Assembly: GCF_000026045.1 (NCBI RefSeq)
Contig: NC_007427.1
Span: 1-64,000 of the forward strand
Reading direction: 5' to 3'
DNA: 64,000 nt
Source of the DNA: Natronomonas pharaonis DSM 2160
GTDB lineage: Archaea > Halobacteriota > Halobacteria > Halobacteriales > Haloarculaceae
The position numbers and the translations under genes were made by a program. The notes under the pieces were generated by a model, which made no database searches, had not been told where the DNA came from, and saw nothing but the letters and a program-made list of their open reading frames with translations. Below are positions 49,153-63,308 of the stretch, one piece after another. Each line of letters opens with the position of its first letter. Position 1 is the first letter of the stretch.

Positions 49153-50569
49153 CGCTAAGCCCCCGTCCTCAAGGAGCGACCAACGGGAGCGAGTAGGGCG
49201 GGGATACAGCGCCCGCACGACTATCAACCACGCACAACCAACATGTTTAATAAACTATAAAGCGAAAACACAAGTACACGCGCATGGACTACAGCCCGCG
49301 TTTCAGACTCTTGCCAACAAGTAGACAGCGAGAGCTACTGGGCTGGCAGCGTGACACCGTGCGCCAAGTCTACAACCACGCATTGTACCGGCTCGACCAA
49401 CTCCCCGAACGCGCCGACCAAACCGTCCGCCAACGCGTCTGGAGCGTTCGTGACGAACTCCCCGACTGGAAAACCAAGTGGGAGGAGTGGAGTAGCGTCT
49501 ACTCCACCGTCCTCCAAGCCGCTGTGGAGCGTATCTACCACAGCATCACTGGACTCGCCCAGCAACGCGATAACGGGCACAAAATCGGGGACTTGAACTG
49601 GAAGAAGCCGCGAGAATTCCAGAGTTTCACGTATCGCCAGCGGGGCTTCGAACTCGACAACAAGAGTGGCCCCGAGGGTCGTGGACTTTTAACACTCAAG
49701 AAAGTGCGTGGTAAGACGCTCGAAATCCCCATCCGAATTCACCGCGACATCGACCCGGACGACATCAAACACGTCACCGTCAAGCAAGAGGCGACGGGTG
49801 CGTGGTATACGTCGTTCAGCATAGACCGAGACGAACCAGAGAAACCAGACCCCGAAGACATCGATCCCGAAGATACAGTGGGCCTTGACCTCGGCGTCCT
49901 CAACTTCATCCACGATTCGGACGGGCGGTCAATCAACCGTCTCGGCCTGTCTGACGACCGCGAACGCCTCGAACGCGAGCACCGGTCGCTCTCCCGCAAG
50001 GAATACGAGTCGAACAACTGGGAAAAGCAGCGCCAGCGCGTCGCAGAGGTCCACATGGATATGCGGAACAAGAAACGCGATTACAAGCACAAACTCGCCC
50101 ACGCGTACACGACCGAGTACGACGCCGTGTTCGTCGAGGACTTGGACGTGAAGCCGATGCTGGAAGATGATGGGAATGCCCGAAACAAAGCCGAGGTGGG
50201 CTGGCGCGACTTCATCCGTATTCTCAAGCATCACGGGCGGAAACACGGCTGTCATGTGGTCGAAGTCGAACCAGCGGGGACGACGAAAGAGTGTGCCTCG
50301 TGTGGGGTGGAGACGGCGAAGCCATTGTGGGTTCGCGAACACTCGTGTCCCGCGTGTGGCTTTGAGTTGGGCCGGGATTTCAACGCGTCGCTAAACGTTC
50401 TTTCTCGCGGTCTCGCCAAGCTAGGAGTGGGTCACTCCGAAGCGACAACGCCTGCGGAGACTGCGACCGCTGTGGACTCGGTTTCCGTGTCTGCAAGTCG
50501 CGTCGTTGAATCAGGAAGCCCCTGCCTCAAGGAGCCTGCGAAGCAGGCGAGTAGGCAGGGGTAGTTCAC
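49153..50569 (+). mobile_element. tnpB element (IS200/IS605 group, no tnpA)
   Basis: The left end has the palindromic segment CGCTAAGCC...GAGTAGGGCGGGG (about 49153-49205). The right end has the hairpin from about 50517 (CCCCTGCCTCAAGGAGCCTG...GCAGGCGAGTAGGCAGGGG) and ends TAGTTCAC at 50569. Both ends share the CTCAAGGAGC and GAGTAGG motifs. The mini-elements at 35597 and 12054 are copies of these ends. No tnpA is present, so movement needs a transposase in trans. The exact left boundary is uncertain by a few bases. Confidence 0.7.
49284..50564 (+). CDS. tnpB: TnpB RNA-guided nuclease
   Basis: The protein has 426 residues. RuvC residues are intact: D in TVGLDLGVLNFIHD, E in VFVEDLDVKPML and D in ELGRDFNASLNVLSRG. 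Zinc finger ECASCGVETAKPLW...CPACGF. TnpB proteins cut DNA at sites next to a short motif, guided by an RNA made from the element's right end. Here the stop codon lies inside the right-end hairpin, so the guide RNA would overlap the gene's 3' end and its guide would start at 50570 (ACACCGACGCTGGGGGCGTA). An AAACTATAAAG box about 27 bases before the ATG suggests its own promoter. Confidence 0.87.
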   Translation: MDYSPRFRLLPTSRQRELLGWQRDTVRQVYNHALYRLDQLPERADQTVRQRVWSVRDELPDWKTKWEEWSSVYSTVLQAAVERIYHSITGLAQQRDNGHKIGDLNWKKPREFQSFTYRQRGFELDNKSGPEGRGLLTLKKVRGKTLEIPIRIHRDIDPDDIKHVTVKQEATGAWYTSFSIDRDEPEKPDPEDIDPEDTVGLDLGVLNFIHDSDGRSINRLGLSDDRERLEREHRSLSRKEYESNNWEKQRQRVAEVHMDMRNKKRDYKHKLAHAYTTEYDAVFVEDLDVKPMLEDDGNARNKAEVGWRDFIRILKHHGRKHGCHVVEVEPAGTTKECASCGVETAKPLWVREHSCPACGFELGRDFNASLNVLSRGLAKLGVGHSEATTPAETATAVDSVSVSASRVVESGSPCLKEPAKQASRQG

Positions 50570-51034: not shown

Positions 51035-51826
51035 TCACCGTATCTTCCCGCGAATGACTGCCGAGATGCCTTCGCTCACCAGCACAACAACGAGAATCGC
51101 AATGAGAATCGTGAGCGCAGCGTCCCACCGGAAGAAATCCAGTACCGCAAACAGCTCCGTACCGATGCCCCCTGCGCCAACAAAGCCGAGAACCGTTGAT
51201 GAGCGAACGTTGATATCCCATCGGTGGGTCGTGATGCCGACGACGGCGGGGGTGATTTGCGGCACAATTCCGTACACCATAACGTCGACAGCGTTACCGC
51301 CGGTTGCTCGAATTGCCTCCGGCTGTCGAGGTTGGATTTCCTCGATCGCTTCCGCGAGCAACTTGCCGATAAACCCAATAGAGCGTACGGCGATGGCGAC
51401 CACCCCCGCCAGTGGGCCGGGGCCGAAAATCACGACGAAAAGTAGCGCCCAGATAATCACGCTGACCGAACGCGTTGCCGTTACCACGAACTTGCCGAGC
51501 AGATACGTCAGCCGGTTCGGTGAGGTGTTCTCGGCTGCGAGATAGGCGATTGGAACCGACAGCACAACTGACAGACCGGTTCCAAGGACTGCGATGTTGA
51601 CCGTTTCAATCATCGGGCCGACGATCTCGTAGCTGTATGCCGCATCAGGCGGATACATCCGGACGAGGAGGTCTTCCACCTCAGCCGGGGCTGACCGAAC
51701 GAAATCATACCGTACCTCAAGCGTCTGCCATGCCCACGCGAAGACGACCAGCGTGAGTAATAGCCCGACAAACCGAGCGAGTCGCTGTCGGCGCGTACGG
51801 TATTCCCAGTGCGGCGGCTCGCTCAT
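51035..51826 (-). CDS. phnE: Phosphonate-type ABC permease PhnE (second)
   Basis: The protein has 263 residues and about six helices, with the EAA-type loop AEAIEEIQPRQPEAIRATGG followed by VDVMVYGIVPQITPAVVG. It pairs with the adjacent PhnE (TAATG overlap at 51826). Two PhnE-type permeases in tandem form the channel in several phosphonate or phosphite importers. Confidence 0.86.
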   Translation of the reverse strand: MSEPPHWEYRTRRQRLARFVGLLLTLVVFAWAWQTLEVRYDFVRSAPAEVEDLLVRMYPPDAAYSYEIVGPMIETVNIAVLGTGLSVVLSVPIAYLAAENTSPNRLTYLLGKFVVTATRSVSVIIWALLFVVIFGPGPLAGVVAIAVRSIGFIGKLLAEAIEEIQPRQPEAIRATGGNAVDVMVYGIVPQITPAVVGITTHRWDINVRSSTVLGFVGAGGIGTELFAVLDFFRWDAALTILIAILVVVLVSEGISAVIRGKIR

Positions 51827-52650
51827 TATTGTATCCGCCTCCGGACCGTTGAGCTGATGATCTCGCCGGCCATCACGATGGCGATGATGCTGATGATGAT
51901 GGCCATCGAGAAGCCGTAATCAAACCGTTCGAAAGAGGTCAAAAGCACTTGACCGAGACCGCCTGCGCCGACAATGCCGATGATGCTGGCCGACCGGATA
52001 TTGATGTCCCACCGGTAAATCGCGAGCCCGACCATCCGTGGCAGTACCTGCGGCAGAAACCCATACAGTATAACGTCCATCCGGCTGCCGCCGGTCGCGC
52101 GGATCGCATCGATCTGTCCTTGGTCGATATCCTCAAGCTCGTCTGCCAGCAGTTTCGAATAAAATCCGACGGTTGTGAAAACGAGGGTGACAACGCCCGC
52201 AAACGGACCGAACCCGAATGCCTTGACAGCGATAATCGCAAATACGAGTCCGTGGAAGGCCCGCGAAAACGTGATCATCCCACGGCCGAGAAGATAGCTC
52301 AGCAGCGGTGAGACGTTCCGAGCAGCCAGAAACCCGATCGGTATCGAGATAGCGACGCCGATAATTGTCGCAACGACCGACATAGCAAGCGTCTCAATAG
52401 TCCCAGAGATGATCACCGAAATTTCATGCCGTCCAACCCCCTCAAGCGTGAGCATGCGGGTGAGCAGCGTCTGCCCTTCAGAAAACCCCAACAGCAGCCG
52501 GTCGAGGGAGATGCGGAGTTGAAATACGTTCCAGGCAAAAAAGACCACGACGAGCAGGTAAACAGCGTATTTAATCAGTTGGCTGCCGAAGACCGTCGGT
52601 CGCTGCCAAGTACGACCGTCGGGGTCGTCATGCCCAGTGTCAGCGGTCAT
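51826..52650 (-). CDS. phnE: Phosphonate-type ABC permease PhnE (first)
   Basis: The protein has 274 residues. The coupling loop ADELEDIDQGQIDAIRATGG and VILYGFLPQVLPRMVGLAIY match its partner. It starts one base inside the phnC stop region (TAATG at 52650), so the operon is tightly coupled. Confidence 0.86.
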   Translation of the reverse strand: MTADTGHDDPDGRTWQRPTVFGSQLIKYAVYLLVVVFFAWNVFQLRISLDRLLLGFSEGQTLLTRMLTLEGVGRHEISVIISGTIETLAMSVVATIIGVAISIPIGFLAARNVSPLLSYLLGRGMITFSRAFHGLVFAIIAVKAFGFGPFAGVVTLVFTTVGFYSKLLADELEDIDQGQIDAIRATGGSRMDVILYGFLPQVLPRMVGLAIYRWDINIRSASIIGIVGAGGLGQVLLTSFERFDYGFSMAIIISIIAIVMAGEIISSTVRRRIQ

Positions 52651-53453
52651 TACCGATGGAGCTCCGTATCGTCGGACAGGGCCGGCTCACTGGATGGTGA
52701 GCTACGGGCTGACTCACGGCCGTTTCGGTAGATTTTATTTTCAATCCCCTCATCGAGCCCATCGGTCGAACCATCGTAAACGATTCGACCGTCAGCAAGC
52801 CCAACGATACGGTCAGCGTACTCCACGGCAAGGTCAACCTCGTGAATATTGAGCAGGACTGGCACGCCTTCGTCACTGGCGATTTCGGTGAGCAGGTCCA
52901 TCACGTCACGAGAGGTATCGGGATCGAGGCTAGAGGTTGGCTCGTCGACGAGCATGATCTTGGGCTGTTGGATCACCGCTCGTGCAATCCCAACCCGTTG
53001 CCGTTGGCCGCCGGACAGCTCGTCCGCACGGTTGTTCTCAAGGCCGCTTAGGCCGACGCGATCGAGGATTTCAAAAGCGCGGTCAACGTCTTCCTGAGGA
53101 AACTTCCGTCGAAACCCTTTCCACGAACTGACGTACCCGAGTCGTCCGGACAGGACGTTTTCCATCACAGTCAGTCGTTCGATGAGATTGTACTCCTGAA
53201 ATATCATCCCCATGTCGCGTCGGACCGCTGGCAACTGTTTTTCCGGAAGGCCGGTCACCTCACGCTCATCAAGCCACACCGTGCCGCTAGTTGGCTCGAC
53301 GAGCCGATTGATGCACCGGACGAGGGTGCTTTTGCCAGCGCCGCTGGGGCCGATAATGGCGACCGTCTCGCTACCTGAAACGGTAAGGGAGACATCGTCG
53401 AGGGCGACGTCACCGGAGTCGTAGACCTTCCGAAGGGACTCAACGCGTAGCAT
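52650..53453 (-). CDS. phnC: Phosphonate-type ABC ATPase PhnC
   Basis: The protein has 267 residues. Walker [11 protein letters not shown]-loop [10 protein letters not shown], signature [14 protein letters not shown], Walker [16 protein letters not shown]-switch NIHEVDLA. The segment [15 protein letters not shown] is typical of PhnC. It starts 23 bases after phnD. Confidence 0.89.
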
Positions 53454-53476
53454 ATGCTCGTTGGACAGCCAGGGAG

Positions 53477-54583
53477 TTAGTCGAGGTTGTCTTCGATGTA
53501 CTCGATTCCCTGTTCTTCATGCACCTGTAGCACCGGGTCGTAGTGAGTAGCGTAGTCGATGGGGGCAAACGTATCGAATCGGTTGACGATCTCGTAGAGA
53601 TCCGTCCCACCGTAGTCGTAATCAAAGTGAGCCCGCTTGATTCCCTCGCGGACCTCTTCGGGGAGATTATACTGATAGCACATTGGCCCAAGGGGACGGG
53701 CGAACGGACCGGCCCAGACCACTTTGAGTTCCTCGGCGTTGATTTCGTCGTCGTTATCCATGACCTCGGGAATCGGGCCAGCTACCGGGCCGACTTCGTA
53801 GTCGCCGAGGTAGATACCGCGCACGCTTCGGAAATGACCACCGGAGAAGCTGATGTCGTAATCGTCGCCGGGGACGATTCCCTCCTGTTCTTCGAGGAAC
53901 AGGGAGGGCTCGAGATGTCCTGAACCGGACGTTTGCTCGGTATGCACGACATCGCGGCCGACGAGGTCATCGACAGTATTGATGTCGTCGTTGTCGATCC
54001 GCGTGATTATCCACAACCGATTGCCAAAGGTACCGTCACCGTACGGCATCGAGAACGGGACCGCGCCGGTCATATTGACTGCGAACGGAACATTGCCGGC
54101 CGCAACCCGGGCGATATGCAGCCGCTCCGAACGGAAGGCTTCGGTCATCGCCGCGTATGAATCAATGACTTGCACCTCAACATCGCGGCCGGTTTCAGCG
54201 CTGATATTTTCAATGAGCGGGTCCAGTCCCTCCTGATACACCTGCTGTTCCTCGCCCGGCGTCCACGCGAACACGAGCGGGTCAGGGTCGATTATCTCGT
54301 CGGCTGTTTCCGGGTCACGCGGCGCTCGCCCGTATCTCGGCTCGTCACGGGGCTCGAAGTTCTCCTCGAGTTCTTCGATCGAAGCGCGAGCGAATCCTTC
54401 CTCAATGAGCCGCCCCGCCGGTTGTGGATATTCCGGATCAAGCGGGTCGAAGTCGGGAAACTCATCGTAGTTGACATCAACCTCCTCGTTTTCGCCACCA
54501 AGGCAACCTGCAAGTGCGCCAATACCAGCGGCGCCACCCACAGCTAGCATTTCACGTCGCGTCCGAGTACACTGGTCGTCCAT
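53477..54583 (-). CDS. phnD: Phosphonate-type binding lipoprotein PhnD
   Basis: The protein has 368 residues from the ATG at 54581-54583; CATTTAACT about 27 bases upstream supports this start. Tat signal [20 protein letters not shown] with C27 as lipid anchor. PhnD domain: [40 protein letters not shown] (ligand site), [20 protein letters not shown]. It captures phosphonate, phosphite or a similar oxyanion. No C-P lyase gene is nearby, so the true substrate is open. Confidence 0.86.
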
Positions 54584-54800
54584 TACCCGTTCGTACCACC
54601 CACGAGTTAAATGGGTTAATATGTTCGACGGTACACGGGGGGCCGAGCGGTTCTGCATTTCGAACCACTCGATTTCCCACTCACCCTCAGCAGTATCAAA
54701 TGATTAGTCGTCCATTATATTGTTAATCGTGCATCCAACTTATACGCAAATAGGTTGAGGTAATCCAAACAAATATGCCCTGACGTTCCAACCCAAAAGC

Positions 54801-57290
54801 ATGGGACCACGAGGTACGATACTGGAAAAGTTGGGTCGAAGCACCCTCGTTTCGACCGGCAGTGTTGGCGGAGTAGGTGGTCTGATAGGCAAGTCTACTG
54901 TGTCCGGCAGCCGAGATGACCCAATTACTCTGGCTGTTCTTGAGAACCGGTCAGGAAAATTTGCGGAGCTCGGGACCTCAAAGTGGCAAGCTAGTCGCCT
55001 CGCAGTCGAAGAGCTAAACGAAAGTGGAGGCGCACTCGGCCGTAAAATTGAGTTGATCGACCCGGACCCGGCGTCCGATGTAAAGCGGTACCGGCAACTG
55101 ACCACCGAAATTCTTGAGGAGCGCGACGTAGACGCGATCTGGGCCGGCTATGCCTCTTCCGAGCGGGAAGTCGTTCGTCCGATAACGAATGCTCACAGAC
55201 AGCTTTACTTCTACACGAACCAGTACGAAGGAGGGGTTTGTGACCGATATACGTTCCCTGTCGGAGCGACTGCCCGCCAGCAGCTTGGAGCTGTGCTCCC
55301 GTACCTCGTATCAGAATACGGACCGAAAATTTTCACCATTGCGGCGGACTACAACTTCGGCCATCTGTCCTCTGACTGGGTGGAGATTCTAGCAGCCGAG
55401 AACGACGCCGAGGTAATCGGCACGGAGTTTGTGCCGTTGTCGGAGACGTCTTTCGAGTGGCTGGTAGACAGAATCGAGGCCGCCGACCCCGACTTCGTCA
55501 TGTCGATGCTCGTCGGGGACAACCACGCGGAGTTCTTCCGAGAAAAGGCCACCCGTGACCTCTCGATGCCTATCGGAACGTCAACTGCGATGGCGCAGGC
55601 GTTCGAACACAAGCGATACGAACCGCCAGCCTTCGCCGACGTGTACGCTGGCGTCAACTACATGGAAGAGCTCTCCACGCAGGAGAACACGACCTTCGTC
55701 GAGCGGTTTTACGAGATGTTCCCGGACGCGGACTACATCAACCAAGAAGCACAGAACAACTACGTCTCGATACATCTCTACGCGAAAGCCGTCGAGGCCG
55801 CAGGGACAACCGACCAAGATGCCGTGATAGAACAGCTGGAAAGCGGACTGTCGTTCGATGCCCCGGAAGGGAGAGTGGCCATCGACGGAGCAACACACCA
55901 CATCAACCACACCATGCGAATCGCGAGGGCTGACGAAGACCACAATATCGAATTCTTCAACGAGCAGCGGATAGATGAGACATTTCTCTCGCAGACGGTC
56001 GGATGTGACCTCCGCGAAGTCGCCGAGACAACGCAGTACAGACCGGCACTGTTCCATCAGCAGGGGACATTCGACAGTATGCACGATGCGCTGGAAGATC
56101 GGGTACAAGATGCGCATGAATCAGAGAAATTGCGTGAGCAACTCGAAGCACGCACACAAGCGTACAGCGACGCGATGCGGGCGGCCGCAGAGGGCGACCT
56201 CACGACCCGCATGTCGACGGGCGCCAACAACGAGGCGCTGGCCGTAATCGCCGAGGAATTCAACGAGATGATCGCCGAGATGGAGCGAACACTCGCCGAC
56301 ATAGGTGAGTTCGCGGATGACGTAGCCAGCGCATCCCGGGAAGTCACCACCTCCACAGACGAGGTCAGAGCAACGAGCGAGTCCGTCGCCAGCTCTATCG
56401 ATCAGATATCTGACGGGGCGGCCGACCAAAACGAATCGCTCCAAGTCGTTAACGACGAGATGAGCGACCTCTCGGCGACAATCGAAGAAGTCGCCGCCAC
56501 CACCGACGAGGTCGCCGACGTTGCAGCCAAGACCGCAGCGGCCGGAAGCCACGGTCAAGAGGCCGCAACCGACGCAATAGCCGGCATGAATGAAACGGAG
56601 CAGAAAGCCGAGCAGGCCGTCGACGCTATCCACGAGCTTGAAGCAGAGGTGACAGAAATCGACGCTCTGATCGACCAAATTTCGGAAATCGCCGAGCAGA
56701 CGAATATCTTAGCACTCAACGCCAACATTGAGGCTGCCCGCACCGGCGGCGACGGTGAGAGCAACGGTGATGGGTTCGCCGTGGTCGCAAACGAAGTCAA
56801 GGAGCTCTCTGAGGAAGTAAAGCAGGCCGCCGAGTCGGCCGAAAGTCGCGTCGAGGCGATTCAAGAGCGAACGGACCGCTCGACGACAGCGGTCGAGGCA
56901 ACGAGCGAGCGCATCGCGGGAGCCTCCGAGCAAGTAACCGAAGCAGTCGAAGCGCTGGAAGAAATCGCAGCGTACGCCGACGAGACCAACGATGGTATCC
57001 AAGAAATCTCCAACACGACTGAAGACCAAGCGACATCGACTGAGGAGACAGTCTCGATGATAGACGAGGTGGCGTCGATAAGCGAAGAGACGACAACGGA
57101 AGCAGAGTCGGTGGCCGCAGCAGCAGAAGAACAGTCGGCATCGCTAGCAGAGGTTTCTGCTTCGGCGACAGAACTCTCAGAGCGGGCGGCAGAGCTGTCA
57201 GAGGCGATAAGCCGTTTTGAGGTCGGGGCCGATCTCGACGACGACGCCGTTGACACATCCGGCGCAGCTGAGCCAGGCGTCTCCGACTAG
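54801..57290 (+). CDS. Fused substrate-binding / methyl-accepting transducer
   Basis: The protein has 829 residues. Residues about 40-400 form a type I periplasmic-binding fold of the urea/short-chain-amide class ([50 protein letters not shown]). A HAMP-like stretch follows (about 450-500: [20 protein letters not shown]), then the MCP signalling domain (about 505-800) with hairpin tip [20 protein letters not shown]. No membrane helix is seen between the parts. Only a weakly hydrophobic N-terminal segment ([16 protein letters not shown]) precedes the binding domain, with no lipobox. It should signal to CheA/CheW, but whether ligand is sensed inside or outside is unclear. Convergent pressure from the adjacent phn importer on ligand type is speculation. 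Confidence 0.83.
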
Positions 57291-57395
57291 CGCACAGCGC
57301 CGGTATCGCCGATACCCAGCGGCTGCGATTCTGGGAAACGATTATGCCAACCGTTCGCACAAAATACGTGACAGGGCAAAGAGCGGCCACTTAGC
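57251..57395. repeat. 145-base direct repeat, copy A
   Basis: Identical to 58247-58391 at 143 of 145 positions. Copy A covers the last 13 codons and stop of the transducer gene and its downstream flank. The 851 bases between the copies hold a RelE/RHH pair and a tnpB remnant. Confidence 0.9.
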
Positions 57396-57409: not shown

Positions 57410-57700
57410 TTAGTCGTCGTCGGGGGTGTAGGCCCCTGGACGCTTCTCGATGGTGTAGACCCACAGAATCTGGTCATCCTGGACTGCCTTACAACCGAGA
57501 CGAAACGCACCGATACGGAGCTTCGAATGCGGCGCACCGGTGAGTGGCTCCAGGTAGTCGCTCGGATCACGCCACTGGTCGGTGACAATCTCGTCAAGCT
57601 TCGAGACGATGCGCTCCTGCTCGTGCGGCTGGAGCTTCTCGTACTCACGTTCTGCGGGATCAGTGAGCCTCCAGTCCCATTCGTCATCACTCGCCGGCAT
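57410..57700 (-). CDS. RelE-family toxin
   Basis: The protein has 96 residues. WRLTDPAEREYEKLQPHEQE, LTGAPHSKLRIGAFRLGCKA and ILWVYTIEKRPGAY follow the RelE/ParE fold: the Arg/Lys strands and terminal aromatic strand fit a ribosome-dependent mRNA nuclease. It overlaps the RHH gene by 14 bases. The module is enclosed by the 145-base direct repeats, a sign of recent mobility. Confidence 0.8.
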   Translation of the reverse strand: MPASDDEWDWRLTDPAEREYEKLQPHEQERIVSKLDEIVTDQWRDPSDYLEPLTGAPHSKLRIGAFRLGCKAVQDDQILWVYTIEKRPGAYTPDDD

Positions 57701-57944
57701 CCATGTCCTTGTTCAGACGCGCTCGGATCTCGTCGCTGCTGTAGGTTCGCCCCTCAGCGGTCGCCAGCTGGTGTTCGCTCGCGGCGATGTCCTTCCAACC
57801 CTTCCGCGAGAACGTGGGGTGTTTCACGGCATCACGGAGCGCCCACCGGATAAACTCGCTCCGGGACGGGAAGTCTTCGGCCCGCCAAGTCGCATCAAGG
57901 TCGTCAAGGAACGCCTCCGGAATCTTGAGCGTGATGGTGGTCAT
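57687..57944 (-). CDS. RHH antitoxin of the RelE pair
   Basis: The protein has 85 residues from the ATG at 57942-57944; a longer start 39 bases upstream is possible. MTTITLKIPEAFLDDLDATW and FPSRSEFIRWALRDAVK form a ribbon-helix-helix. The C-terminal acidic tail (YSSDEIRARLNKDMDAGE) would bind the toxin. A TATTACCTCCGTATTACC stretch just upstream contains two TATTACC repeats that may be the operator. Confidence 0.77.
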   Translation of the reverse strand: MTTITLKIPEAFLDDLDATWRAEDFPSRSEFIRWALRDAVKHPTFSRKGWKDIAASEHQLATAEGRTYSSDEIRARLNKDMDAGE

Positions 57945-58021
57945 GTTAGGGTCGTCATTGGCCCCTGCGTCAGCGTCGGACATACATCTGTATTACCTCC
58001 GTATTACCATAAGCATTGTCG

Positions 58022-58246: not shown

Positions 58247-58391
58247 TGACACATCCGGCGCAGCTGAGCCAGGCGTCTCCGACTAGCGCACAGCGCCGGT
58301 ATCGCTGATACCCAGCGGCTGCGATTCTGGGAAACGATTATGCCAACTGTTCGCACAAAATACGTGACAGGGCAAAGAGCGGCCACTTAGC
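58247..58391. repeat. 145-base direct repeat, copy B
   Basis: Second copy of 57251-57395 with two base changes. It carries only the last codons of the transducer gene and therefore lies in non-coding context here. Confidence 0.9.
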
Positions 58392-58978: not shown

Positions 58979-59517
58979 CCTGAACATCTGGGGCACCGAC
59001 TGCAGCCGTCGGTGCTGTTCCAGGCTTGATTTGCTACTACTTGTCTTCACCCGTCGAGTGCGTCCAATCGGCTGTACTCATCCTCCGAGAGTGAAATCGA
59101 GGCGGCGGCGACGTTCTCTTCGAGGTGTGCAACGCTCCCGGTCCCCGGGATGGGCAACACCATGTCCGAGTGCTCAAGCAGCCATGCGAGCGCAATCTGG
59201 TAGATTGTGGCGTCGTGTGCGTCGGCGATCGATTCGATAGCGTCGTGTCCGGAGAGCGACCCAGCGGCAATCGGAAAATAAGGCATAAAGCCGATCCCGT
59301 GGTCCTCGCAGGCTTGGAGGACGTCTTCGTGGTCGCGACTCAAGACGTTGTACTGGTTTTGCACTGTTGCAATCTCGACATGGTCTCTGGCCTGCTCGAG
59401 TTGGTCGACGGTGACGTTCGAGAGGCCGATGTGGTCGACAAGCCCCTCGTCTTTGAGCTCTGCGAACGCCGTGACACTGTCTTCGAACGGCGTGTCCGGG
59501 TCAGGGCTGTGTAGTTG

Positions 59518-60887
59518 GTGAACCGCCTCGGGGTCAAGCCCCGAGGCTTCCCGTTTCGATGACGCGACTTGCAGGAACCGACGAAGACCGGCCTCCATCG
59601 GTTTCCACAGCGGTCGCAGTCTCCACGGGCGTGACTTCGGCCTGTCCCAGACCTAACTCCCGAAGACCGCGAGAAAGAACGTTGTACGACGCATTCGCGT
59701 CCCTGTCCGCCTCGAACCCACACGTCGGACATGAGTGTTCCCGCACCCACAACGGCTTCTCCGTCTCGACGCCACACTCGGCGCACTCTTTGGTTGTCCC
59801 CGCAGGGTTCACTTGGACAACGTGCGTGCCGTACAGGTCGCCCTTATACTCCAGCATATTGATGAACCCACGCCACGCAGCGTCCTGCTTATTCCGGGCG
59901 TTCCCCCGCTGTTGAAGCATCCCTGAGACGTTCAAATCCTCCACGAACACGGCGTCATACGTCTTGACCAGCCATGTCGTGAGTTTGTGCTGGAAATCTT
60001 CGACTTTCCGCTTGATTCGACGTTTGACTTTGGCGACCTCCCGGCGTTGTTTCTTCCAGTTGTTGCTCCTATGTTCTTTTCGGGAGAGATTGCGCTGTTC
60101 CCGACGCAGGCGTTCGTACTCGTCGGAGAGGTTAAGCCAGTCCACGCTGTCGCCATCGCTCGTATAGATGTAGTTGGTGATGCCGAGGTCGATGCCGACA
60201 CAATCCTCGGCATCCAAGTCATCCACGTCGGGTTTCTCGGGGAGCGTGGTGTCTTCGACTTCGAGGCCAAACGTGACGTACCACTCGCCAGTCGTTTCTT
60301 TCTTCAGCGTGACTTCTTTGATAGTGGCGTTGTCGGGGATAGGGCGGTGGTAGCGGATGGGGATGTCACCGATTTTCGAAAGCCAGAGCGTGGCAGTCCG
60401 ACCACTCGTGTTTTTGAGTTCGAAGCCGGACTGCGAGTACGTCACACTCTGGTATTCTCGCGGCGGTTTCCACTTGAGCCACCCGACCTTGTGCCCGTTC
60501 TGTTTCTTCTCGGAAAGGTTCGATAGGTTATCGTAGAAGCGTTCGACGGTTTTCTGCAACGCCTTCGAGTGGACTTCCGAGAACACGGACCATTCGTCTT
60601 TCCACTCGGTGAGGCGCTTCTGGTGTTGATACGCCGAACCGATGTTGTCCTCGTCAGTGTCGAGGGCGTTGTATTCGTAGCGGGTGTGGTTGTAGGCTTG
60701 GCGGTGGATGTCGATGTGGCGTTCCGCTTCCGCAGCCACACCTGTTCGGTCAGGATAGGCACAGAAGCGGTAGTCGTACCACATCGCCGTACCGTGATTA
60801 TTGGCATATTTCGACTTAATGGTTTGGTCCACAAGTTGTCGGCTTCATCCACGGGGTCAAGCCCCGTGGCATTCGCCTCGACAGCCT
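59518..60887 (-). mobile_element. tnpB element inserted in the aldo/keto reductase gene
   Basis: On the minus strand the left end starts AGGCTGTCGAGGCGAATGCC at 60887 with hairpin CCACGGGG/CCCCGTGG. The right end has hairpin CCTCGGGG/CCCCGAGG and ends GGTTCAC at 59518. The 5' flank is CTTTAC. No target duplication is made, as expected for IS200/IS605-type transposition. Total 1370 bases. Mini-elements at 8647 and 44546 share its ends. Confidence 0.85.
59534..60784 (-). CDS. tnpB: TnpB RNA-guided nuclease
   Basis: The protein has 416 residues from the ATG at 60782-60784 (MWYDYRFCAYPDRTGVAAEA); an earlier ATG adds 16 residues of unlikely sequence. RuvC residues intact: D in VGIDLGITNYIYTS, E in VFVEDLNVSGML, D in FEADRDANASYNVLS. 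Zinc finger ECAECGVETEKPLW...CPTCGF. It is about 80 percent alike in its C-terminal third to the copy at 49284. The stop is 16 bases from the element's right edge, so the guide RNA must overlap the coding region. The guide would begin CAACTACACAGCCCTGACCC, inside the reductase gene. Confidence 0.87.
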   Translation of the reverse strand: MWYDYRFCAYPDRTGVAAEAERHIDIHRQAYNHTRYEYNALDTDEDNIGSAYQHQKRLTEWKDEWSVFSEVHSKALQKTVERFYDNLSNLSEKKQNGHKVGWLKWKPPREYQSVTYSQSGFELKNTSGRTATLWLSKIGDIPIRYHRPIPDNATIKEVTLKKETTGEWYVTFGLEVEDTTLPEKPDVDDLDAEDCVGIDLGITNYIYTSDGDSVDWLNLSDEYERLRREQRNLSRKEHRSNNWKKQRREVAKVKRRIKRKVEDFQHKLTTWLVKTYDAVFVEDLNVSGMLQQRGNARNKQDAAWRGFINMLEYKGDLYGTHVVQVNPAGTTKECAECGVETEKPLWVREHSCPTCGFEADRDANASYNVLSRGLRELGLGQAEVTPVETATAVETDGGRSSSVPASRVIETGSLGA

Positions 60888-61265
60888 GTAAAGGTCGATC
60901 GAGTCCACGCCGAGACGGTCACGGCTGACAAGCGCCTGATTGCGGATATACTCGGGGGCGGCGTGGTTGAGCCACTCGCCGTTGCTGTTCCGGAGCAGCC
61001 CGGCCTTGGTGGCAATCGTCACAGCGTCCGTATCAATCGCTTCGCCAAGTAGGCGCTCGCTAACGCCCGGGCCGTAGGAGTCGGCAGTATCGATAAAGTC
61101 GACGCCGAGTTCGACGGCTCGCTGGGCGACCGCTTTGGCGGACTGCTCGTCCGCAGGGGGCCCGATGATATCTTCGCCACAGAGGCGCATTGCGCCAAAG
61201 CCCAGTCGGTTCACAGTCATATCGCCGCCGAGGTCGAACGTATCGCTCTCGTTTGTGAGCGTCAC

Positions 61266-61579: not shown

Positions 61580-63308
61580 CACAACTTACCGAACAGTTCC
61601 ACCTGCCAGACGAGTACCACGACGCCTGTGACCGACTAACGGCGCTCGTCCAGAAACACGCACAGCGGTTGCTCGCTGAGGAATACTGGCGTGACGAGCA
61701 TCTTGACGCCATCAGCGACCACTCGGGCCAGTCCTACACCTACATCCGCGCGACGACCACGACGCCTTCGAAGACGCCGAAGAATACGTCTACAGTCGAT
61801 TCAAACGGTGCGTCTACCATCGCGTTACGCACGTTCTCGACGCCCACAGCGACGAATATCACGCCTTCCAGTTCGTGACTGACACGGTTGCCGAGCGCAA
61901 GATTCGACGCATTGGCTGGCACAGACTCCGCCAACGGTTGTTCGACGAGGACTCACCATACATCGAATGGCGCATATTGGAGTCGGTCGTCGACCAACTC
62001 AACAGCTACTACGACACACATGGCCGCTTCCCCGAGGCGTACACAGAGCTAGTCAAGACGCCCCAACCCAACGGCACACTGCCGTTTGCACCGGACAAGG
62101 GCGACTACCACATCCACGAACTGACAGTCGAAGACGGTGAACTCCGCTTCGTGTTGAATGCGCCGGACTCGCTCTCGCCGGAAAGCTACCACGACTGGAC
62201 AAAACACGTACTTCGCTTCTCAACGCATTCCCGGTTTCAGCAGATGCTCGACGCAGGAGTCGTGAAAGCACCGACACTCCACGCTTCCGGCCACGGCTAC
62301 ACGCTTGACGTGCCTGTTGCTGTGCCCGAACAGGACACTGAGACGGTTGCCGACCGCGTGTTAGCGGCCGATCTCGGCGTTAAAAAGCAGGCCACGGCAG
62401 TCGTTCTTGACAGTGGCGACGTGGCACACGAACAGGTGACGCCGCCACAGTTTCTCGACCATCCAGCGAAAGATAAACTGTTTCGGGTGAAAGCCGACGC
62501 CGAAGGCATCAACGACCGGCTTGCAGAACTCCGCAGACAGGGCAAAGCACACACGGAACGGTTTGACCACTTGCTTAGTGAGTACCGCCAGACGCGGCGA
62601 AAAGAACGCCGTCTTCGTGAGCAAATTCAACACGACGTAGCCAACCAGTTGGTGTGGCTCGCTGCCAAGGATGGTTGTGAAACCATCGTGTTCGAGTCAC
62701 TCGGCCAACTTGACGCAGGCGACACAAGTGGAGAAGTCGCGTGGTCGATCTCGTCGTGGGCACGAGGAGAACTACTCGACCACGTCGAGTACAAGGCCGG
62801 GTTGCTCGGAATCGACGTGACGACGGTGAATCCGTGGGGAACGAGTCGGTTCTGCCCCCGGTGTGGTGAGCGTGGAGAGACGGTGAACGCACCGAACGAC
62901 CACACGGAGTGTCGTCACGGTGGACATTTCCACTGCCCGAATTGTGGCTACGAGGGCGACCGTGACGTGGTTGGGGCAGTGAACGTCGGGCGAAAGCACC
63001 TCTCCGACAGCAAGATGGAGACGGCGACCCCTGCTGAGTATATCTCGGCGGGGAAACACGCCAGTTTTTCATCACGCCGCGCGGGGTGTGCCCGTTCTGC
63101 TGGCGTTCAGTCCGCGACCGATGAACAGGATCAGGCGAGCGGTCGTCAGACCCACCTCTCTCAGTTCCGTGCCCGGTCACTCACTGCGAAATCGGGTGAG
63201 AAAGACATGAGTGGACTGCAACCAAATCACGGTGGTAAGACGGGCCTGCGGTGGCCCAGACGTAGTGTGACACAAACTGTCCTCGTCAGTACTACTGATT
63301 GTGGATGA
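61576..63308 (+). pseudogene. tnpB: Long-form TnpB gene with a frameshift
   Basis: ATG 61576 reads EQFHLPDEYHDACDRLTALV up to SDHSGQSYTYIRA. At about 61757 coding sense moves to another frame (DDHDAFEDAEEYVYSRFKRC) and runs to 63308. Together they make a protein of about 576 residues, longer than the 416-426 of the other two. RuvC residues D (LAADLGVKKQATAV), E (IVFESLGQLDAG) and D (YEGDRDVVGAVNVG) and the zinc finger FCPRCGERGE...CPNCGY are intact, with a 110-residue basic C-terminal tail. A one-base error or a programmed shift cannot be distinguished here. A second start at 61875 would give a 477-aa protein lacking the N-terminus. Confidence 0.75.

Follow-up and report, generated by a model that had tools for sequence, protein, structure and literature searches.

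The gene found at positions 54801-57290 of the window (64,000 nucleotides, the initial part of a contig of 130,989 bases that is presumably plasmid PL131 of Natronomonas pharaonis DSM 2160) probably encodes a soluble, cytoplasmic chemotaxis transducer. Its sensor would be a haloarchaeal UrtA domain devoid of export signal, reading internal urea, a reading to which a probability of about 0.6 is assigned. Features of the gene and its surroundings are collected in Table 1.

Table 1. Features of the receptor gene and flanking DNA (positions refer to the window).
Feature	Positions	Strand	Details and basis
Phosphonate-type importer PhnD-PhnC-PhnE-PhnE	51035..54658	-	profile searches; divergent neighbour of the receptor gene
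Putative soluble UrtA-MCP chemoreceptor gene	54801..57290	+	829 aa; ORF, domain profiles, 5 homologous fusions
N-terminal stretch, codons 1-33	54801..54899	+	missing from 5 homologues; untranslated if GTG 54900 is the start
UrtA/AmiC-type bilobed ligand-binding domain	54921..56045	+	residues 41-415; TIGR03669, AlphaFold2, structure comparison
Linker and start of output helix	56046..56150	+	residues 416-450; common to the other fusions
Breakpoint between fusion family and membrane-spanning Cache transducers	56151..56168	+	residues 451-456; breakpoint scan, identity table, trees
Degenerate HAMP-like segment (helix, break at 464-477, helix)	56163..56315	+	residues 455-505; predicted secondary structure
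MCP signalling domain with hairpin tip	56562..57080	+	residues 588-760; PF00015, E 2e-33
145-nt direct repeat, copy 1	57251..57395	+	last codons of the receptor and 105 nt downstream

Limits, strand and length of the reading frame are exactly those given in an earlier note on this DNA, which had recognized a binding fold of the UrtA/AmiC class and an MCP domain in one chain. Pfam, NCBIfam and AlphaFold2 all sustain this description. The N-terminal half matches Peripla_BP_6 (residues 41-381, E 1e-84), and is aligned over the whole length of TIGR03669 (residues 42-415, profile positions 1-375 of 375) with a score of 654.5 bits versus a cut-off of 494.8. TIGR03669 is the archaeal family of urea ABC substrate-binding proteins, of which TIGR03407 is the bacterial counterpart. 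MCPsignal (PF00015) is matched at 116 bits, the threshold being 34.6. In the AlphaFold2 model the bilobed domain (residues 41-400, pLDDT mostly >90) is followed by long soluble helices, and an output helix is found at 424-463. The HAMP domain announced in the note is present as a HAMP-like helix-break-helix segment, but this is degenerate and escapes Pfam, as no match to PF00672 was found in the receptor at 1e-3. The segment aligns to the region that follows the canonical HAMP in membrane-spanning relatives such as L137. Both halves of the receptor are estimated to be under purifying selection, dN/dS being about 0.05-0.15 in the sensory half.

A search for the same architecture in other haloarchaea identified the fusion in five more species, which are Halonotius pteroides, Halosimplex carlsbadense, Halosimplex pelagicum, a third genome of the Halosimplex group (L107) and Haloarcula mannanilytica. 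No characterized protein was found among these homologues. Within the receptor's own family the fusion is present in 5 of 146 genomes. Sensory halves are about 80% identical between the window protein and the other five; in the corresponding tree all six form one clade (100/100), split at its base into the window copy and the rest, and the stem branch separating fused from free domains measures 0.46. Long fusions were not detected in bacteria: only four of 80 genome-contig loci, all haloarchaeal, join binding domain and MCP in one frame. For Paraburkholderia (L135), which had appeared as a longer match, the frame with the binding domain bears no MCP signature, and the Skermanella protein (L136) carries the annotation of a plain UrtA; both were discarded. 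Chemoreceptors built on a urea-binding protein were not found in the open-licence literature. The UrtA-MCP layout is rare and, as judged provisionally from that literature, combines known parts in a manner not yet described.

The most unexpected feature of the receptor is the exchange of its signalling half. Identity between the window protein and the other fusions remains at about 80% up to about residue 450 and is about 42% beyond. Linker residues 421-450 (63-77%) and the hairpin tip (residues 631-660, 73-83%) are both well conserved, and the other five fusions are mutually mostly 60-93% identical over their full length. The signalling half of the window protein is 49-51% identical to membrane-spanning Cache transducers encoded by Natrialbaceae plasmids, and these are the nearest relatives found for it (about 51% for L137, from Natronosalvus amylolyticus). 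The best single breakpoint, at residues 451-456, coincides with the beginning of the HAMP-like segment and accommodates 95 of 126 informative sites; none of 5000 shuffles performed as well. Since the trees of the two halves disagree, the same sensory module has evidently come to be combined with two distinct signalling rods. The window protein is, on sequence comparison, a chimera, with a sensory half from the fusion family and a signalling half from the kin of Cache transducers. The exchange would have taken place at residues 451-456, either in the window lineage or in the lineage of the other fusions; both histories fit the basal split between the window copy and the rest in the sensory tree.

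Membrane segments were judged by 19-residue Kyte-Doolittle means and by a biological insertion scale. None of membrane grade was detected in a scan of the whole receptor, where the best mean is 0.99 (residues 16-34), nor at the domain junction (residues 380-470), where the best mean is -0.03. The earlier statement that no membrane segment is visible is thus confirmed over the full chain, N-terminus and junction included. By hydropathy, membrane segments are similarly missing from the fusions of all six species. Seven other transducers of the same genome feature clear segments (hydropathy 2.3-2.6), and 10 of the 17 other readable ones have none of membrane grade. Most N. pharaonis transducers therefore look soluble, and soluble transducers are commonplace here; a survey classified 44% of archaeal MCPs as cytoplasmic (PMC9680633). 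The receptor stands out through its urea-binding protein used as cytoplasmic sensor, rather than through its solubility.

Evidence on the ligand comes from the pocket and from gene content. Nine residues lie near bound urea in Prochlorococcus UrtA (PMC10392092). Transferred to the receptor via alignments, these positions define a predicted pocket made of Y117, S119, Y138, Q141, E143, Y184, F186, V238 and A265. The nine are identical in the six fusions, in the UrtA of the host itself (L022) and in the tabulated free haloarchaeal UrtAs, L031 being the exception. Five of the eight residues of the urea-contacting set of Prochlorococcus UrtA (W120, S122, Y141, Q144, E146, Y190, N246, S274) are kept. 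The changes at the remaining ones (W120 to Y, N246 to V, S274 to A) recur in nearly all the free haloarchaeal UrtAs examined, and these proteins may hold urea in a pocket slightly unlike the bacterial one. The gene for the host's free UrtA (976841-978139) adjoins urease genes (UreB at 978830, UreC at 979240-980934), and UrtB, UrtC and UrtD follow, all subunits except UrtA and UreC having been named by eye from sequence. This location ties the haloarchaeal pocket, which this UrtA shares with the receptor, to urea through gene context. Urease is encoded by all six species carrying the fusion, versus 65 of 146 (45%) genomes of the family, though three of the six belong to one genus and they do not represent six independent events. 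A free UrtA is also retained in all six, and no urea genes were found beside the fusion gene in any species looked at. On the TIGR03669 score, the type of pocket, the host UrtA located beside urease and the urease of the six carriers, urea is favoured as the putative ligand. Its specificity rests on gene context, because of the three pocket changes and of the AmiC-like Tyr/Val pair discussed below.

In all sampled free haloarchaeal UrtAs with a complete N-terminus, this contains twin arginine, hydrophobic stretch and cysteine, the hallmarks of a Tat-lipoprotein signal. If the N-terminus of the window protein were a working signal or anchor, the binding domain would lie outside or at the membrane. 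Residues 11-33 are indeed laid out like a Tat signal, and the hydropathy of their h-region (1.33) falls within the range of the free haloarchaeal UrtAs (1.29-1.70). The resemblance is modest, however, as 280 of 20000 shuffles score as well with a simple position matrix. Twin arginine and lipobox cysteine are missing from the N-termini of all six fusions. The other five begin only few residues ahead of the binding domain and lack the stretch altogether. The stretch may even precede the real start: translation from codon 34, a GTG in frame (54900), would bring the start in line with that of the five homologues, GC3 is 0.45 in codons 1-33 and 0.69 in the gene body, and the choice between ATG 54801 and GTG 54900 is uncertain. 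Moreover, no second membrane segment is available to place the MCP half in the cytoplasm. A working signal is hence very improbable. The stretch is possibly a relic of a Tat-lipoprotein signal, but neither as a relic nor as DNA ahead of the start does it speak for export. Of the two options contemplated in the earlier note, sensing in the cytoplasm gains support from the lack of a membrane helix in the fusions of six species and of an N-terminal extension in five copies out of six, while attachment through a weakly hydrophobic N-terminus was discarded on hydropathy and homologue comparison. Given the lack of a membrane helix, of an extension in the homologues and of twin arginine and lipobox cysteine, the receptor is most likely cytoplasmic, and not attached in an unusual way. 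The chimera could in turn be only apparent, if the signalling half of the window protein were merely faster-evolving. MCP halves do outpace sensory halves in other fusions (dN 0.145 versus 0.077, L026-L028), yet this explanation is hardly credible. In the tree of signalling halves the window protein clusters with the Cache transducers (98/97), and the data reject a common descent of its signalling half and those of the other fusions (p-AU 0.004). Identity falls abruptly at residues 451-456, from about 75% to 43%. Faster evolution alone is insufficient, because dN of the signalling half is about 5.5-fold that of the sensory half when the window protein is compared to the others, and about 1.3-1.9-fold among the others.

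A cytoplasmic receptor of the same kind could respond to an aliphatic amide of small size, such as formamide or acetamide, or to a urea analogue, acting in an AmiC-like manner. Among solved structures, AmiC bound to acetamide is the top match to the binding domain, tied with UrtA-urea structures (Z about 44; for the AmiC structure 1pea, Z 44.1, 359 aligned residues, rmsd 2.5). In addition, Tyr117 and Val238 replace the Trp and Asn of bacterial UrtA, and according to the alignment AmiC, an amide sensor, has Tyr and Val. The identical pocket is found, on the other hand, in haloarchaeal UrtAs, including the one beside the host urease; Gln141 and Glu143 correspond to Gln144 and Glu146 of UrtA, and every fusion carrier has urease. 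An amide is thus a possible, though rather unlikely, ligand. The amide/urea class proposed in the earlier note was correct, and within it urea is favoured over short amides. Quite improbable is the view that the domain no longer senses a free ligand, and reads an importer or another protein partner from inside. UrtA normally docks on its permease, and the 0.46 stem branch between fused and free domains leaves room for a new role. Against it stand the unchanged pocket residues and the very low dN/dS; furthermore, docking occurs on the outer face of the permease, out of reach for a cytoplasmic domain.

According to the favoured reading, a cytoplasmic sensor of urea, the ligand would reach the cytoplasm by UrtABCDE import or by diffusion, and would be drained by urease. 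Urea would close the two lobes of the binding domain, and the movement would enter helix 424-463 of the linker, cross the HAMP-like segment and arrive at the MCP hairpin, the tip of which would alter CheA activity and hence archaellum switching. Cells would in this way steer by their internal urea supply. The path through the linker is one that we infer, because residues 419-440 are modelled with pLDDT <50. Chances are about even that the six proteins represent an archaeal family of chemoreceptors gauging internal urea, in which the export signal was lost and, in one lineage, the sensory module was re-joined to another rod at the HAMP border. If so, sensory modules would be interchangeable across soluble and membrane-spanning transducers. 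Binding proteins of importers usually report on the outside, and one would here be apparently turned inward; a cell could steer by urea already imported but undegraded, not by the external supply. For archaeal urea taxis the receptor provides a concrete candidate open to experimental test, and the putative transfer of a sensory module at a precise point may be useful for understanding and building chimeric receptors.

The adjacency to a phosphonate-type importer, pointed out in the earlier note, is real, but a link to the receptor is unsupported. None of the other fusions has the importer beside it, and for this reason it was not judged part of the system; phosphonate sensing via the importer was discarded on the same ground. 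At the other side, the 3' end of the receptor gene is duplicated about 1 kb downstream, as a second copy of the direct repeat, 99% identical to the first, is located at 58247-58391. Between the two copies lie a frame for a RelE/ParE-type toxin (57410-57700) and one for a ribbon-helix-helix antitoxin (57687-57983), both on the minus strand. Three IS605 OrfB/TnpB-type genes (49284-50564, 59534-60832, 61875-63308) are clustered in a region of 14 kb. An inverted stretch of 198 nt, 75% alike, is common to the first two, and the second separates the parts of a split aldo/keto reductase gene (59047-61265, minus strand; profile 1-108 at 60816-61265, 106-289 at 59047-59598). Elsewhere, H. carlsbadense (the L027 genome; G417, contig C5, 57060-61033) hosts two tandem genes for the urease alpha-subunit, both above the family cut-off. 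Tandem genes of this type were also found in genomes G274 and G281.

As to known systems, the receptor shares with UrtA the fold, the full-length profile match and the haloarchaeal-type pocket. It differs in lacking an export signal, in being fused to an MCP and in lying outside a urtABCDE operon. No urtBCDE/urease operon was found around the fusions, which are flanked by the phosphonate importer here and by unrelated genes elsewhere. AmiC is a cytoplasmic protein, and AmiC of Pseudomonas offers a precedent for the type I binding fold as intracellular sensor, with a pocket that has the same Tyr/Val pair. The partner through which AmiC acts is AmiR, which it binds, whereas the domain of the receptor is fused to a chemoreceptor and carries Gln141 as in UrtA. 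The Cache transducers of Natrialbaceae (L137) resemble the window protein in the signalling half, but carry ahead of it a Cache sensor, membrane helices and a canonical HAMP, all missing from the receptor.

Among haloarchaeal transducers, Car of Halobacterium salinarum is a cytoplasmic transducer for arginine (PMC2652253). Like the receptor, it would be a soluble haloarchaeal transducer devoted to an internal nitrogen compound. Car is not known to us to contain a binding-protein domain. BasT and CosT of Halobacterium span the membrane, and the binding lipoproteins BasB and CosB are separate and located outside. There too a binding protein serves chemotaxis, but the task is divided between a lipoprotein and a membrane receptor, whereas in the window protein a single, putatively soluble chain would accomplish both functions.
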